Source: a virus
IMG/VR virus record: IMGVR_UViG_3300033153_002192
Span: 1-35,947 of that record
Strand: one strand, 5' to 3'
Length of the DNA stretch: 35,947 nt
Of this stretch, positions 10,701-27,168 are shown in pieces. The translations under genes and the position numbers were made by a program. The notes beneath the pieces are model-generated. The model searched no databases. It saw only the letters and a list, made by a program, of their open reading frames with translations, and was not told where the DNA came from. Every line of letters begins with the position of its first letter. The stretch's first letter is position 1.

Positions 10701-10717
10701 AAGCAAAAGGATAAAAC

Positions 10718-11800
10718 GTGTCATTTAATTCAAGCAACCCAAGGTCAGAATGTGTAGCAACAGCAGGACAAACAGTATTTAGTTTCCTCTTCAAGATATA
10801 CGCAACGACAGATATTAAAGTTTACATCACGGCAGTTGGTGAGTCTACACCTGTTCTGCAAACTGAAACAACAGACTATACGGTTGTAATAGACGGTGAT
10901 GCTGGTGGTACAGTGACACTTGTTTCTGGTGCAGCAGAGGACGAAACTATCACGCTGATAAGAAGGCTACCAGTCACACGTTCTGTGGAATATCAAACTA
11001 GTGGCGATTTACTTGCTGCCACTCTCAATGGAGATCAAGAATACCAAACTTATCTCATAGCTGACGGGATGGATGCATTAGGAGCACTAGAGACTGGGGA
11101 CTTCTCCCCGTCTTCGTTTGTTTTGATAGCAGGAGGCACAATGACTGGGCATCTTGGTGTACCATCAGGTGCAACAGGAGCACAAGTTCCACAAGCACAA
11201 AAAGTGGTGCACAAGGCAAACAGCGAAAGTATAACAGGCACAAAAACATTTACAGTAAGTCCTATAGTACCTACAGCAACAGCAGCCACTCATGTGGTGA
11301 ATAAGACTCAAATGGAAGATTATGCCGACTCTGCATCTGCGGCAGTCGTCGTGGATACTCTGATAGTTAATGATACTAAAACCTCTGGAACAGATGGCGG
11401 AACTTTTACTTTAGGGGATTGGAGAACTAGAGATTTAAATACTGTTCAGAATAATGATATTAGTGGAGCAAGTTTAGCCAGTAATCAGATAACTCTTCCA
11501 GCAGGTACGTATTTAGTTATTGCTAGAGCCCCAGCCCATGAAGTAACTAGTCACGTATCTAGGCTATATGACACTACAGGGGCAGCGGAATTAGTATTAG
11601 GGAGTATTGGCTTTTCACAAGCTTCAACCTCAGACTCCGATACAGACTCAAGTATTTATGGTGTCTTCACTATAGGGGTAGAGTCTGTGATAGAGGTACA
11701 ACACCAAAGCTCAGCCACACAAGCTACAGATGGGTTTGGTTCTGCTGGTAGTATGACCTCGAATATTTATACTCAAATAGAATTAAGGAAAACAGCATGA
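10718..11800 (+). CDS. T7-type tail fibre with a different C-terminal receptor-binding domain
   Basis: This 360-residue protein starts at GTG 10718, with AAAGGAT upstream. Residues 1-125 match the N-terminal tail-attachment domain of T7 gp17 (QTVFSFLFKIYATTDIKVYI, then YTV.IDG..GGTVTL and ETITLIRRLPVTRSVEYQ). Residues about 140-205 hold the short shaft motifs TMTGHLGVPSG and SITGTKTFTVSPIVPTA. Residues 215-360 form a beta-rich domain (GDWRTRDLN, SNQITLPAGTYLVIARAPA) like the C1q/TNF-type jelly rolls at phage fibre tips. Codon choice changes from about 11340 onward, with more TTA, TTT and ACT, so the tip looks like an exchanged module. It overlaps the next gene by four bases. Confidence 0.85.
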   Translation: MSFNSSNPRSECVATAGQTVFSFLFKIYATTDIKVYITAVGESTPVLQTETTDYTVVIDGDAGGTVTLVSGAAEDETITLIRRLPVTRSVEYQTSGDLLAATLNGDQEYQTYLIADGMDALGALETGDFSPSSFVLIAGGTMTGHLGVPSGATGAQVPQAQKVVHKANSESITGTKTFTVSPIVPTATAATHVVNKTQMEDYADSASAAVVVDTLIVNDTKTSGTDGGTFTLGDWRTRDLNTVQNNDISGASLASNQITLPAGTYLVIARAPAHEVTSHVSRLYDTTGAAELVLGSIGFSQASTSDSDTDSSIYGVFTIGVESVIEVQHQSSATQATDGFGSAGSMTSNIYTQIELRKTA

Positions 11801-12839: not shown

Positions 12840-14623
12840 CTGAAGCCGCGAAAGCAATAATCGAAGCAAGACATCCCGAAGGCGAAAGATTTGTCTATAA
12901 CGAGGCAGAAGGTGTATCCCCAGCATTTGAAGATGGTGCATACTCATGTAACGCTGTAGCTCTTGGTGCTTCACATAACAACTCTTATGTAGATATACCA
13001 GTAGATGCTAACACAGAAGCCATACTTTACTATGATAGAGCAAATGAAGAGTTTAAATATACTACTATGGAAATGGTGCTTAATGGTACTTTTGATGAGA
13101 ATATAGATGACTGGGTAACACCAGTATGGATAGATGGTGAAGCAGAAATTTCAGGAAGTACTATATACGGAGACTATCAAATAGTACCAACTATTTCAGG
13201 ATTTGAATATTTTGTAACTGGACGAGCTCGTATAGTAACAGCAGTATCTACTGGTATTAGAATATGTGAAGATGGTGCCTCTGGAACAATACTAGCAGAG
13301 TCTCCAACAACTACCAGCCTTACTATGGTTGGCCTAGAGGTTACTTTTGATGCCACATCAGCAAATTCAGCAGTATACTTAAGGAACAATGCAAGAAATG
13401 TAACTAGTATATGGGATGACATTACTATGCGTCCAACTTCTATGTATAGAATGGAACTCTCAGGCTCAGACTACACAAAGCTAACAGAGATACCGACACA
13501 AGCAGACTTAGACTATCTAACAGCTAACCCAGAAGCACTAAGAATAATGGTAGTGACGGGTGTTGATGATACTAACTTGTCATTTGGTAATGCTGATATA
13601 CAAGACAGCCCCTGGTTTGGCAATGAAGGGCAAAGAGGTGGAGATACTCTCTATAATTATGCACAAGATGACAACTTAACAATAGAAGATTATCAGGCTA
13701 GTTGTCGTACAACCTACGAAAACGAAAAAACAGGCGTATCTAACCTGCCATTCGTACAAGACAGTAGCGGTGTAATCACAGCCAAGACAGATGCAAACAC
13801 TATGGCAACGGATGATGGTGGTAAGTATATTGATACGGGTATTAAACCTAATCTTGATGCAATGACTATTACTCAGAGGATTAGTGGTGAGTTGCAGGAT
13901 TTTGGTAGTGAGTTAGTAGTTAATGGTACTTTCGATACAGCTACTACAGGGTGGACTGCTGACAGTGCAACATTAAGTGTAGATACACAAAGATTAAAAA
14001 TAACAAGTGCAGGGACCTATGCTTCTGCTGAACAAACAATATCTGGACTAGACGAGACAAAAACATATAAACTTGTAGGTGAATTTACAAAAGGAAGCGT
14101 AGCAAATGTTTCTATACAAGTAAGAGATGAAGCAGACACAACAAATATAGAAGTTATACCCTTGAGTATAAGTACTGATTTTCAGGTATCGTTTTCCCCT
14201 GAGGCAGGTGAGACAAGTGTTATATTGAGATTTATAGCAAACCCGGGAAGTACGGGGCAGACACAGTTTTATGATAATGTATCCATTAAAGAGGATTTGG
14301 GACTTATCCAGCGCACAGAAAAAAGAGAACATACTTGGGATGATGAAGCAGTAACCGAAAGCTATCGCATTGACGATGTAGAGCAGTCCTACACACCAGC
14401 AAGACCAAGCACAACAGCTACACTTAAATGTAGTGAGTTACCAATGATAGGGTATCAAGATGATATAACATTGCACCATGATGTAGTGAGGATAAGAACG
14501 GTGTCAGATACTATTGCTGCGTCAGTAGCGTTAGATCAGGCTTACTATGAAGAGCATTACCCTATAACAGAGAACGGTAATGCAATAACAAGTGATGGTG
14601 AAAACCTTTACTTCAGACCATAA
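12836..14623 (+). CDS. Receptor-binding protein with two carbohydrate-binding-like domains
   Basis: This 595-residue protein carries two related modules. The first (about residues 80-200) starts EMVLNGTFDENIDDWVTP and the second (about 358-485) starts ELVVNGTFDTATTGWTADS. Both end in a D(N/D)(V/I)(S/T)(I/M) strand. The NGTFD...W opening and beta-sandwich pattern are those of CBM_4_9-like carbohydrate-binding modules. The C-terminal region has further beta strands. It lies in the tail-fibre cassette and probably contacts surface glycans. The nucleotide sequences of the module starts also match (TTAATGGTACTTT), pointing to internal duplication. Which glycan is bound cannot be seen. Confidence 0.65.
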   Translation: MTEAAKAIIEARHPEGERFVYNEAEGVSPAFEDGAYSCNAVALGASHNNSYVDIPVDANTEAILYYDRANEEFKYTTMEMVLNGTFDENIDDWVTPVWIDGEAEISGSTIYGDYQIVPTISGFEYFVTGRARIVTAVSTGIRICEDGASGTILAESPTTTSLTMVGLEVTFDATSANSAVYLRNNARNVTSIWDDITMRPTSMYRMELSGSDYTKLTEIPTQADLDYLTANPEALRIMVVTGVDDTNLSFGNADIQDSPWFGNEGQRGGDTLYNYAQDDNLTIEDYQASCRTTYENEKTGVSNLPFVQDSSGVITAKTDANTMATDDGGKYIDTGIKPNLDAMTITQRISGELQDFGSELVVNGTFDTATTGWTADSATLSVDTQRLKITSAGTYASAEQTISGLDETKTYKLVGEFTKGSVANVSIQVRDEADTTNIEVIPLSISTDFQVSFSPEAGETSVILRFIANPGSTGQTQFYDNVSIKEDLGLIQRTEKREHTWDDEAVTESYRIDDVEQSYTPARPSTTATLKCSELPMIGYQDDITLHHDVVRIRTVSDTIAASVALDQAYYEEHYPITENGNAITSDGENLYFRP

Positions 14624-16285: not shown

Positions 16286-16526
16286 TGGTTGTTCACAGAA
16301 AATACCAGAGTGTGAACCTCAGCCCTGTATACAAAATTACCCTACTTTACCGGTATACAAAACACCATTCAAAAAGAAAATGACTGAACCCTCTTCTCTT
16401 GGAGGGGGTATGTATGCAATAGTCGGTACTGAGCTTAGAGACTGCCTTAAAACAAATAGCGAGTTAAGACGTATCTGTGATCGGTACAGATTAGGGCATA
16501 TTAAAATAAACAAAGTCTACAAATGA
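16242..16526 (+). CDS. Outer-membrane spanin lipoprotein (Rz1-like)
   Basis: This 94-residue protein begins MMKILLSTLVILAISGCSQ: a signal peptide with lipobox AISGC and the acylated Cys at residue 17. The mature part has Pro-rich and Cys-containing segments (IPECEPQPCIQNYPTLPVY). The first 44 bases overlap the Rz-like gene in another frame. It should be anchored in the outer membrane and bind the i-spanin in the periplasm. At 94 residues it is longer than lambda Rz1. GGAGA precedes the start. Confidence 0.75.
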   Translation: MMKILLSTLVILAISGCSQKIPECEPQPCIQNYPTLPVYKTPFKKKMTEPSSLGGGMYAIVGTELRDCLKTNSELRRICDRYRLGHIKINKVYK

Positions 16527-17158: not shown

Positions 17159-17584
17159 TTAAGTATTGCTACAAATATTAACACGGCTATGGCAAACGAT
17201 ATTGTTTTCATCTATGTATTCCTTTATGTTTGTTCCCACACTTAAATATTCTTTGTATTTTTCTATAGTCCACTTTAGTTTTTGAAAGACTTTCCAACTA
17301 TAGGAGCTCTCGAAATACCGACACAGGTTAATAATAAAATACCTATGCTTCCCGATATACTCCACGAACAGTTTCCCCGTTCTATTATAGGTCAACTGTT
17401 TACGCATATCCTGTATCTCTTTGTGAAGTTGGTCGAATTCAATCGTATAATTCACATATTTTTCCCACAGCTCACCACCGTCAAGCGTATTGATGTAGTC
17501 AAACATATCTCTATTGTCTCTTCTAAGATTAGAGAAATACGGTGGCTGTCTGCCAATTCTCTTTGAGTTGTCTGTGAGTGTCAT
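17159..17584 (-). CDS. Minus-strand HTH-like protein (candidate repressor or switch protein)
   Basis: This 141-residue protein is the only well-supported gene of ordinary length on the minus strand. Residues 6-30 (SKRIGRQPPYFSNLRRDNRD) read like a helix-turn-helix of the type found in small phage regulators, followed by an acidic coiled coil (YVNYTIEFDQLHKEIQDMRK) and a basic, aromatic C-terminal half. GAAAGGGA lies before the ATG. It is divergent from the early operon and faces a control region with a palindromic operator. That position suggests a regulator of the early promoter, but the DNA-binding role is inferred. Confidence 0.65.
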   Translation of the reverse strand: MTLTDNSKRIGRQPPYFSNLRRDNRDMFDYINTLDGGELWEKYVNYTIEFDQLHKEIQDMRKQLTYNRTGKLFVEYIGKHRYFIINLCRYFESSYSWKVFQKLKWTIEKYKEYLSVGTNIKEYIDENNIVCHSRVNICSNT

Positions 17585-17600
17585 ACTTTCCCTTTCAAAA

Positions 17601-17730
17601 GAGAACTCTTAGGTCAGCAGGGTGGAATTGAACCACGTGAGTAGATATTCAAGTACAATTATTCTCTACTATCCCGCACTACAAGGGTCGGACTTGCATC
17701 ATCCGCTTAACTGCTGAACTAAAAGTTCTC
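17601..17730 (-). ncRNA. tRNA-like structured element clamped by a long stem
   Basis: On the minus strand the 130 bases fold into an outer stem formed by 17711-17730 and 17601-17620 (20 pairs with one wobble and one mismatch). The inner 7 pairs act like an acceptor stem (TCAGCAG with CTGCTGA). Inside lie a CGGA/TCCG arm, a CCC/GGG arm whose 9-base loop contains TTGTAG, a long variable-like arm (AGTAGA/TCTACT) and a T-arm GTGG-TTCAATT-CCAC with a canonical seven-base T-loop. It is thus like a class II tRNA, but the D-loop lacks GG, the anticodon stem is short and CCT follows the discriminator position. It is in the sense strand of the HTH-gene leader. Confidence 0.4.
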
Positions 17731-17731
17731 A

Positions 17732-17795
17732 TTTAGGGTGCATAAGGAGGAGGTATTTATTGAAAGGGATTAAATAAAATAGTATGCACCCCAAA
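17732..17795. repeat. Inverted repeat enclosing an orphan ribosome binding site
   Basis: GGGTGCATA (17736-17744) is the exact reverse complement of TATGCACCC (17783-17791); with one mismatch the arms extend to 13 bases. The plus-strand loop holds the strong AGGAGGAGG signal at 17745-17753, but only a four-codon frame (TTG start at 17759) follows. It directly abuts the tRNA-like element. It may be a leader hairpin of the minus-strand transcript or the remnant of a lost plus-strand gene. Confidence 0.55.
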
Positions 17796-17810
17796 TCAAG
17801 ACTTACCACC

Positions 17811-24569: not shown

Positions 24570-25030
24570 TGAATACAAAACTATTTAGCAAGACGATGCT
24601 TATCACGGTACTTCACTATGCAGAACACGCAAATAACAACACATACAATAAAGACTTCATTGTAAGGCTTAGAGGTGCAATCAATGGATATTTGACATTC
24701 CATAAACTAAATACTAAAGAGTCACAGCAAGTCATTGAGATAGGCAAGAGAGAGTTTATAACAAAGCTTAAAGAGACAGAAATCGACTACTCGGTGCACT
24801 TAATGGCATTGATGGAACACTGGGTTAAACTGATACCAAAAGAGGACAGGCGAAACGCTTTGAATATCTCAGACAAAAAGATATTGCAAAACAAGAGCAA
24901 ACTGATACTTGATATGCTGCAGCTCAAAAGTAGAGACAAAGATGAATATAACAGAGTTAAGCTGATTGTATCAGATAGTGAACTTGTGGCTAAGAAGTAT
25001 GCTTATTATTTAAGTGAGGAGTTGAGATGA
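24569..25030 (+). CDS. Helical early protein upstream of the methyltransferase
   Basis: This 153-residue protein is mostly helical (KLFSKTMLITVLHYAEHANN, LMALMEHWVKLIPKEDRRN, LILDMLQLKSRDKDEYNRV). ATG 24569 is preferred to upstream in-frame starts because they lie inside the membrane-protein gene. It overlaps the methyltransferase start by four bases and has GAGGAG near its end serving that gene. I do not recognise it; a role linked to the methyltransferase is possible. Confidence 0.5.
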   Translation: MNTKLFSKTMLITVLHYAEHANNNTYNKDFIVRLRGAINGYLTFHKLNTKESQQVIEIGKREFITKLKETEIDYSVHLMALMEHWVKLIPKEDRRNALNISDKKILQNKSKLILDMLQLKSRDKDEYNRVKLIVSDSELVAKKYAYYLSEELR

Positions 25031-26334
25031 AGATAGCAACAGCCTTTTCAGGCGGTTTTGGTTCGATAGAATTTGCTATGAAATGCGAGAATATAAAACA
25101 TGAAGTTGTGTTTGCGTGCGAATGGTTAGACCCCCAGAGAAAATCATATTTACACAATCACGGAGAGCCTACAAGCAATTTCTATAAAGATATTAGAGAT
25201 ATGGACGGAACTAAATATAAAGGAGAGATAGACCTTTATCATTTAAGCCCACCATGTCAAAGCTATTCACTTGCAGGAAGACGAGGAGGTGCAGCAGACG
25301 AAAGAGGAGGGTTGATGTTTTCTGCTATAAAAAGCATTAATGAAGTCCAACCAAAGATGTTCACTATCGAAAATGTGAAAGGCTTACTAAGTTCAAATGG
25401 TGGTGAAGATTGGAAAAACATTCTAAGCGATGTGAGATCACTCAAAGGGTACACGGTTCAATATGGAGTAATGAACGCAAAAGACCAGGGAACACCACAG
25501 AATCGTGAACGTTTGTTTATCGTTGGGTTCAGAGGTGAGTGTATGCCTATGCCTTTCCCCTCTGTGACGAAACTTGATAAGTGTTTGGCAAATGTTCTTG
25601 AAGATGAAGTTGATGAGAAGTATTATTTAAGTAAGAAGGCAATCGCAAACTTCATAAAAAAAGATAGCGATCCAAACAACAATATGAGTATACAAGCTTT
25701 TCACAGTAGGGAGGATGATTATTCTGCAACAATAACTGCGAGATACAACAAGCGTGGAATAACAGACCCATACATACTTGAAAGCATAAATAAGATCGGA
25801 TTTATAAACCAAGATACCCAAGCATCACAAGTATTTAGTTCAGACGGAGTTTGCCCATCATTATGTGCAGGAACACATGGATATGCACAAGGATATATAG
25901 CAGAACTAAAGCAAATAGGGAACATAGACCAAAAAGGACATAACAGTTTATGGGGAAGAGTATATGATCCGGACGGCATAGCACCAACACAAAATGCAAA
26001 AGGTGGTGGTGGTGGTGGTGCAAAGACTGGATTAGTTTTAGTAGATCAACCACATAAAGATTTTCCTTACGGAATTATTGAAATAGATGGCGAATATTAT
26101 GCTGTCAGACGTTTAACACCAAGAGAGTGTAGCCGTGTTCAAGGTGACTTCAACGATATGTTTAAACAAGGTGATGCAAGTGATACAAAACTGTACGAGT
26201 TTGTAGGTAACGCAATGGACATATCAACCACACGAAATCTACTTAAAACCATGTTTGCTCATAAGGTAGAGTTTGGAGAGCCACAAGAACCAAGCTTTGT
26301 TAGGTCAGAGACGGCACAAAAGAGTTTGTTTTGA
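25027..26334 (+). CDS. DNA (cytosine-5) methyltransferase
   Basis: This 435-residue enzyme transfers a methyl group from AdoMet to cytosine C5. Motif I is TAFSGGFGSIEFAM, motif IV SPPCQSYS (catalytic Cys77), motif VI TIENVKGL (115-117 ENV), motif VIII QNRERLFIVG, and motif X YEFVGNAMD near the C-terminus. The target-recognition part contains related units such as FSSDGVCPSLCAGTHGYAQ and YDPDGIAPTQNAKGG, the latter ending in six Gly coded by a GGT run. No restriction enzyme is adjacent, so it is an orphan, likely for protection against host restriction. Confidence 0.9.
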   Translation: MKIATAFSGGFGSIEFAMKCENIKHEVVFACEWLDPQRKSYLHNHGEPTSNFYKDIRDMDGTKYKGEIDLYHLSPPCQSYSLAGRRGGAADERGGLMFSAIKSINEVQPKMFTIENVKGLLSSNGGEDWKNILSDVRSLKGYTVQYGVMNAKDQGTPQNRERLFIVGFRGECMPMPFPSVTKLDKCLANVLEDEVDEKYYLSKKAIANFIKKDSDPNNNMSIQAFHSREDDYSATITARYNKRGITDPYILESINKIGFINQDTQASQVFSSDGVCPSLCAGTHGYAQGYIAELKQIGNIDQKGHNSLWGRVYDPDGIAPTQNAKGGGGGGAKTGLVLVDQPHKDFPYGIIEIDGEYYAVRRLTPRECSRVQGDFNDMFKQGDASDTKLYEFVGNAMDISTTRNLLKTMFAHKVEFGEPQEPSFVRSETAQKSLF

Positions 26335-26436: not shown

Positions 26437-26442
26437 TATAAT
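26437..26442 (+). promoter_or_regulatory. Candidate promoter (GGTATAAT) for the SSB operon
   Basis: A perfect TATAAT preceded by CGG lies in the 221-base gap after the methyltransferase. No -35 box is seen. The transcript would start near 26449 and carry the pseudoknot at 26477-26546 in its leader. Upstream, GCAAC-AAGTT and AACTT-TG-GTTGC (about 26370-26406) can form a bulged hairpin. Confidence 0.45.
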
Positions 26443-26476
26443 GCAGAAGCGTAACGTGAGTTATTAATCAAGTTTT

Positions 26477-26549
26477 CTTAAAGATGTTGTTTCTTCTTTC
26501 CAAACGGCAGGGCAACATCATCTTTAAGAATAATAAGACCGTTTGGAGG
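26477..26549 (+). promoter_or_regulatory. H-type pseudoknot covering the ribosome binding site
   Basis: Stem A pairs CTTAAAGATG (26477-26486) with CATCTTTAAG (26519-26528), ten perfect pairs. Stem B pairs CCAAACGG (26500-26507), which lies in the loop of A, with CCGTTTGG (26539-26546), eight perfect pairs. The two stems interlock as a pseudoknot. The right arm of B overlaps the Shine-Dalgarno GGAGG (26545-26549) of the gene at 26556, so folding would hide the ribosome binding site. An alternative pairing of GATGTTG with CAACATC is also possible. Confidence 0.7.
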
Positions 26550-26555
26550 TTGCAA

Positions 26556-26738
26556 ATGACTAAACAAGAAATAGAAAAAGCAATTAGCTTTAAAAAAGAG
26601 CTAATCATGGAAAAACTTAATCAAAAACACAAAATCATAAAAATACTATCGGAGTACGAAGAAGATTTGTTTGAATTACAAAATCTTCTGAAAGAATGCA
26701 TCAATTTGAATTTAGATAAGGAGCTATCACATGAATAA
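26556..26738 (+). CDS. Small coiled-coil protein under pseudoknot control
   Basis: This 60-residue protein is helical throughout (EIEKAISFKKELIMEKLNQK, LFELQNLLKECINLNLDKEL). ATG 26556 is chosen because GGAGG lies seven bases upstream; an in-frame start at 26484 would be inside the leader structure. It overlaps the SSB start by eight bases, so control of this gene should pass to SSB by coupling. The family is not recognised. Confidence 0.55.
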   Translation: MTKQEIEKAISFKKELIMEKLNQKHKIIKILSEYEEDLFELQNLLKECINLNLDKELSHE

Positions 26739-27168
26739 AATATCAATAATTGGAACATTAACAGCACAGCCAGAGACAAAATATACCACATCAGGAACAG
26801 CCATAACATCATTTTCGGTAGCATGGAATGAAAGCCGTAAGCAGCAAGACGGCAGCTACAAAGATGAAGTACACTTTTTTCAAGTCACAGCATGGGCAAA
26901 AAAAGGTGAGGTAATCCAGCAGCACTTCGGAAAAGGGAGCAGAATAGCCATAATAGGCAGACTCCAACAAGACAGATGGGAAAAAGATGGGCAAAAGCAT
27001 AGCAAAGTATATGTAACGCTTGAAGATTTTGACTTTATAGACCGCAAACAAGACGCACAGCCACAAGAAGACAGAGGGTATTCAAATCCTAGCCCACAAT
27101 ACGCACCACCTCAGCAAAACCAACCGTCAAACGTACCAGAAATTGACATCACAGAAATACCCTTTTAA
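26731..27168 (+). CDS. ssb: Single-stranded DNA-binding protein
   Basis: This 145-residue protein has the SSB OB-fold (NKISIIGTLTAQPETKYTTS, FSVAWNESRK, VHFFQVTAWAKKGEVIQQHF, GRLQQDRWEKDGQKHSKVYV), a Gln/Pro/Asn-rich linker and the acidic tip DITEIPF, like the DDDIPF tip of bacterial SSB that binds partner proteins. It coats single strands during replication and supports the Erf/NinB annealing path. Translation is coupled to the small upstream gene. Confidence 0.9.
   Translation: MNKISIIGTLTAQPETKYTTSGTAITSFSVAWNESRKQQDGSYKDEVHFFQVTAWAKKGEVIQQHFGKGSRIAIIGRLQQDRWEKDGQKHSKVYVTLEDFDFIDRKQDAQPQEDRGYSNPSPQYAPPQQNQPSNVPEIDITEIPF

Follow-up and report, generated by a model that had tools for sequence, protein, structure and literature searches.

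What are two perfect stems that cross each other doing in front of a gene for single-stranded DNA-binding protein (SSB)? The question is raised by the window, the whole stretch of DNA analysed here, which is a virus record of 35,947 bases. In it, a gap of ~220 bases separates a C5 cytosine methylase gene from the 60-aa gene in front of ssb, and contains a TATAAT hexamer, a small hairpin (P0) and the crossing stems.

Crossing stems before the ssb operon

The first-pass annotation of this DNA had reported two perfect, crossing stems of ten and eight pairs in this gap. Both are present and both are perfect, and they proved slightly longer than claimed, with 12 Watson-Crick pairs in stem A (TTCTTAAAGATG, 26475-26486, with CATCTTTAAGAA, 26519-26530) and 9 pairs in stem B (TCCAAACGG, 26499-26507, with CCGTTTGGA, 26539-26547). 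The 5' arm of B lies inside the loop of A, and its 3' arm lies 3' of A. Stem B had been described as ending in the GG of a GGAGG Shine-Dalgarno (SD) sequence; it does run into this sequence, and the exact extent of the overlap is GGA (26545-26547), the first three bases of GGAGG (26545-26549). The small gene overlaps ssb, as had been stated. Because ATC is duplicated in its 3' arm, stem A can alternatively be read as 8 bp, a 3-nt bulge (ATC) and 7 bp, and this bulged reading, called P1 below, is the version conserved in relatives. With stem B called S2, the features of the locus are as follows.

25027-26334: C5 cytosine methylase gene, 5' neighbour of the gap
26437-26442, plus strand: predicted promoter -10 element, TATAAT, called from sequence, no -35 match
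26451-26464, plus strand: P0, small 5' hairpin GTAAC-GTGA-GTTAT, near where the transcript is predicted to begin; part of the minimum free-energy fold
26475-26489, plus strand: P1 5' arm, outer TTCTTAAA (26475-26482) and inner GATGTTG (26483-26489); architecture kept in 16 elements
26490-26498, plus strand: L1, pyrimidine-rich loop TTTCTTCTT; in relatives it holds the 3' side of a helix, P3
26499-26507, plus strand: S2 5' arm TCCAAACGG (stem B)
26508-26512, plus strand: L2, CAGGG; GG or GGG is common here among relatives
26513-26530, plus strand: P1 3' arm, inner CAACATC (26513-26519), bulge ATC (26520-26522) and outer TTTAAGAA (26523-26530)
26539-26547, plus strand: S2 3' arm CCGTTTGGA (stem B), taking in the GGA of the SD
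26545-26549, plus strand: SD, GGAGG, partly within S2
26556-26738, plus strand: 60-aa coiled-coil-like first gene, ATG at 26556, overlapping ssb
26731-27168, plus strand: ssb, single-stranded DNA-binding protein (Pfam PF00436 SSB, E 5.6e-27)

A chance origin had been thought unlikely, and 300 dinucleotide shuffles of the window agree: perfect crossing pairs totalling at least 21 bp arose at 0.003 per window, whereas crossing 8x8 pairs as such arose at 0.77 per shuffled window. Only one strong crossing pair is found near ssb in the window, and the nested fold alone is more stable than that of shuffles (z -2.4).

The hexamer at 26437-26442 may serve as the -10 element of a promoter. TATAAT-like hexamers (5-6 of 6 matches) occur in ten related ssb-region elements, where they end 31-52 nt before P1, and a small hairpin sits at the P0 position in most related elements, with weak shuffle z-scores. 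No terminator-like site was found.

Used as a search query, the 60-aa protein returned no relatives; it is weakly similar to the product of a 62-aa gene before ssb in a related contig, G002. A coiled-coil N-terminal family recurs among the first genes before ssb (window 26556-26738; L299 5902-6090; L431 2623-3120); its L299 and L431 members are clearly related and the window member only weakly. L431 has a long version of the protein, G002 and the window have short ones. The window DNA showed no similarity to named phages, and the neighbouring 112-aa protein, as a query, matched one named phage only and zero plasmids.

Relatives with the same architecture

Relatives were found by terminase, by the neighbouring protein or by SSB, and structure played no part in their choice. 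The terminase search gave 15 viral contigs, among which the closest relatives carrying ssb were G001, G002, G007 and G013. Three of these four (G001, G013 and G002) have the element at the start of the ssb cluster, in front of its first gene: a hairpin of ~16 bp whose 3' arm bulges by 3-4 nt and whose loop pairs over 7-11 bp with the SD of that gene. A single AT-rich match in G007, which also has ssb, is probably due to chance, as is an AT-rich match in L208. In G001 and G013 the upstream flank is near-identical and the pseudoknot sequences differ; a 25-base exact piece upstream of the element is found in these two viral contigs only.

The neighbouring-protein and SSB searches added further elements, for a total of 16 in 14 phage records, leaving out repeats of the same record. 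They share an architecture in largely different sequence, namely a hairpin of ~15-16 bp, a bulged 3' arm (3 nt in all elements except G013, with 4 nt) and a loop pairing with the SD. Not all are independent, since L449e and L427e hardly differ in sequence and G001, L483 and L431 resemble one another at 87-88%. Upstream of ssb the element is single in the relatives, not tandem.

Covariation in relatives had been named by the first-pass annotation as a check on its pseudoknot, and two-sided changes were found between near homologues. For example, between the window and L427 a T-A pair of P1 becomes C-G, and S2 changes from TCCAAACGG/CCGTTTGGA to CCTCCTAAAG/CTTTAGGAGG; further two-sided changes are seen among the window, L427 and L445, and between G001 and L483, L431 and L438. 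Together with the conserved position, this covariation strongly supports the reality of the SD-hiding pseudoknot.

A strict descriptor required a stem of 14 pairs or more with a 3-nt bulge, 6 or more in each half, and an S2 of 7 or more that ends in the SD at proper spacing. Composed after the first elements were known and applied to loci picked by protein similarity, it gave 20 matches, 12 of them distinct, in 1.76 Mb of loci; over 20 locally shuffled copies it gave 1. Tallies of canonical pairs across the whole set of elements are circular, because the descriptor selected for pairing, and were excluded from the evidence. The weight rests instead on the enrichment over shuffles, the conserved place and the two-sided changes between near homologues. 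Judged from these sequence comparisons, the element is almost certainly an RNA structure kept by selection and a real control element.

In most relatives the architecture extends to a third helix, P3, formed between the purine-rich sequence that flanks P1 on its 5' side and the loop immediately 3' of the P1 5' arm. The pairings are AAGAGT/ACTCTT (G001, G002), AGAGC/GCTCT (G013), AAGAA/TTCTT (L426, L427), CGAAGC/GCTTCG (L429) and GAAGT/ACTTC (L440). P3 lies outside the descriptor's selection criteria, and its true pairs beat pairs swapped between elements with a permutation p of ~1e-5 over 15 elements, some of them related; seven other region pairs gave p 0.16-0.79 in the same test. The window has only AAG/CTT at this place, which is not significant, and P3 is therefore left unclaimed there. 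In most relatives P3 and S2 together would give a compact double pseudoknot, and the 3-nt bulge may bend P1 so that the loop and both flanks can meet. The linkers of the second G002 element seem not long enough to let every stem form at once, so that the stems may be alternatives there.

Nine of the 16 elements precede ssb, one (L429) precedes an operon running from ERF to SSB, four precede operons of the ERF or Rad52-like kind, and the two in L438 and L445 come immediately after ssb. Thus 14 head operons with ssb and/or an ERF/Rad52-like single-strand annealing gene, and 10, the window's included, head ssb-containing operons; two of the four annealing-operon elements (L449e and L427e) are the near-copies. 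Most of ~98 ssb loci, including several close ones (L435, L433 and L441), are without a detectable element. A looser search for crossing stems without the SD upstream of ssb gave nothing convincing at 21 other loci, and for ssb loci from genome contigs no resembling element appeared among the top descriptor matches. In a scan of viral contigs for the exact S2-arm pattern, the loci ranking high by descriptor among the matches listed were unlike the element.

A probable translational gate and its alternatives

The best explanation as a whole, to which we give a probability of roughly 0.7, is that the element-bearing virus is a tailed phage and that the element, in the 5' leader of its ssb operon, acts in cis as an RNA gate in which a pseudoknot hides the SD. 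The P1 hairpin, ~15 bp long and bulged by 3 nt on its 3' side, would present a loop that pairs with the downstream SD to form S2, and the P1/S2 pseudoknot would keep ribosomes off the first gene and, through the overlapping start and stop codons, probably off ssb too. In the nested-only ensemble of the window the first SD bases are unpaired with a probability of 0.58-0.93, so that the pseudoknot is what would occlude the SD. Of the leaders that were folded, about half, including that of the window, leave the SD largely unpaired when S2 is absent; the remainder already have part of the SD paired in nested structures. The S2 duplexes come to -9 to -20 kcal/mol as a crude sum of energies, in which P1 and S2 carry a fixed penalty of 9.6 kcal/mol. 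Such a duplex, added over the SD, would plausibly lower translation initiation at the first gene and, via the overlapping genes, at ssb. We infer a regulated gate rather than a constant throttle.

An unlikely alternative is that the element activates translation as a ribonuclease site, a host double-strand ribonuclease (e.g. RNase III) cutting the bulged P1, untying the pseudoknot and freeing the SD in a manner comparable to T7 early leaders. In nearly all elements the ~15-bp stem carries a 3-nt asymmetric bulge at one fixed position, which, together with the early-operon location, would suit such a site, but P1 is shorter than typical RNase III substrates and the conservation of S2 and P3 would be left unexplained. 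That the 5' hairpin and the tight pseudoknot protect the mRNA 5' end against 5'-to-3' decay, with SD hiding secondary, seems quite improbable. P0 does lie near the point where the transcript is predicted to begin, structure extends through the whole leader and the shape is conserved without the sequence; however, an element that only protected would have no need for S2 to include the SD, as it does, though the descriptor demanded this.

A metabolite riboswitch, in which a ligand would stabilise or release the pseudoknot, is very unlikely. The first-pass annotation had offered a ligand-binding switch as one option, and SD-sequestering pseudoknots do occur in riboswitches, the SD of the preQ1-II and SAM-II classes being occluded by an H-type pseudoknot. 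Here, however, loops and junctions vary strongly and offer no invariant pocket, no Rfam family matched at gathering score and no riboswitch class at E up to 10 (window region) or 5 (relatives), and the controlled genes are those of DNA replication and recombination. It is just as improbable that the paired segments act as DNA, in an inverted-repeat operator or a single-stranded DNA structure: each TCTTWAAGA half of stem A is close to a palindrome in its own right and a single-stranded DNA role was weighed by the STAXI authors for pseudoknots near ssb genes (PMC2864571), but every element points the same way and closes with an SD followed by a start codon, replacements giving G-U pairs are seen on the coding strand, and TTCTTWAAGAT and the S2 sequences are not enriched elsewhere in the window, where an operator reading of TTCTTWAAGAT at up to 1 mismatch was rejected for want of enrichment.

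If the element is an SD-hiding gate, the leading, though tentative, candidate for its trigger would be feedback by the operon's own single-stranded DNA-binding proteins (SSB, ERF), which would recognise shape and not sequence, like T4 gp32. The idea is limited by the position of the element after ssb in L438 and L445 and by its absence from most ssb loci. Control by a metabolite or by the small coiled-coil protein is less likely than feedback by SSB or an annealing protein. The coiled-coil protein had also been put forward earlier and is now disfavoured: near-identical pseudoknots precede three different first genes in G001, L483 and L431, which argues against control by the product of the first gene, and in L426 the element lies directly before ssb with no leader gene. 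More speculative, and in our judgment doubtful, is the larger proposal of a widespread, previously undescribed class of double-pseudoknot operators, built of P1 bent at its 3-nt bulge, P3 from the 5' flank and S2 from the SD, by which phages would couple SSB and annealing-protein synthesis to the level of free protein through shape recognition, leaving the sequence free to turn over.

Comparison with known leaders and other SD-hiding structures

The element belongs to the general kind of SD-sequestering structured leaders, in that the SD is paired in a conserved structure across the 16 elements. The nearest working likeness is the gene 32 operator of T4 and RB69, a leader pseudoknot with relaxed sequence and stringent structural needs, which in T4 adjoins a GIY-YIG endonuclease gene (PMC535899). 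The window likewise has a pseudoknot in the 5' leader of a phage ssb operon, and the first gene in G002 encodes a GIY-YIG-like T5orf172/MUG113 protein, recalling the T4 neighbour. The T4 pseudoknot, however, is ~28 nt long and does not hide the SD: the SD region on its 3' side is unstructured and contains UUAAA repeats, and the blocking is done by gp32. Here, by contrast, S2 itself includes the SD, P1 has a bulge and is much longer, and similar elements are also found in front of annealing-protein operons. No UUAAA repeats are found between the window pseudoknot and the ATG, and the SD lies in S2. Because the T4 SD region is unstructured, the element is not a member of the gene 32 operator type.

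STAXI (RF01728) comprises pseudoknots near ssb and other DNA-handling genes (PMC2864571) and is alike in its position near ssb, but it occurs as two or three tandem copies, often with UUCG loops, whereas the present element is single and fused to the SD. The STAXI covariance model matched nothing at its gathering score, and relaxing E to as much as 10 for the window region and 5 for six loci brought no match either; Rfam 15, with its known riboswitch classes, held no family match to the element in the window region or the relatives. RBS-sequestering hairpins limit translation of T4 genes and homing endonucleases (I-TevI, segB, mobE; PMC2988022); there too a phage leader structure hides the SD, but by simple hairpins, unlike the loop-flank pseudoknot conserved here across phages and gene types. 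With preQ1-II and SAM-II the element shares an SD within a pseudoknot, and differs in having no conserved ligand pocket and no Rfam match. No description of this element came up in searches of open-licence papers.

Translational feedback by a phage SSB is known in detail mainly from T4. A structure-conserved, sequence-variable leader in small phages, common to SSB and annealing operons, would give a second, simpler system, in which one could ask how a non-specific single-stranded DNA-binding protein locates its own mRNA. Moreover, the element represents an RNA family that is missed when searching by sequence, since the shape is conserved and the letters are replaced.

Other SD-hiding structures were seen along the way. 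On the minus strand of the window (17584-17800), a second long-range pairing hides the SD before a leftward 141-aa gene: a loop, CCCTTTCAA, pairs with TTGAAAGGG at the SD, within a hairpin GGGTGCAT/ATGCACCC whose loop also holds CCTCCTCC. A tRNA-like stretch (T-arm-like GGTTCAATTCC) lies between the pairing arms; ARAGORN makes no call there. In relatives, leaders of leftward or annealing operons have a hairpin, often with an inner hairpin, whose recurring loop resembles an anti-Shine-Dalgarno sequence (CTTCCTCCTTT or CCTCCTCCTTT), as in L355 (minus strand, ~10717-10830), L357 (15640-15837), L360 (7970-8045) and L380 (minus strand, 13110-13211); in some leaders this loop pairs with the SD of the first gene too. 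Simple H-type pseudoknots with unbulged stems and a hidden SD are found in L410 (1351-1415), L378 (10099-10166) and L380 (minus strand, 16294-16359), and two of these three precede AP2-domain genes resembling homing endonucleases.
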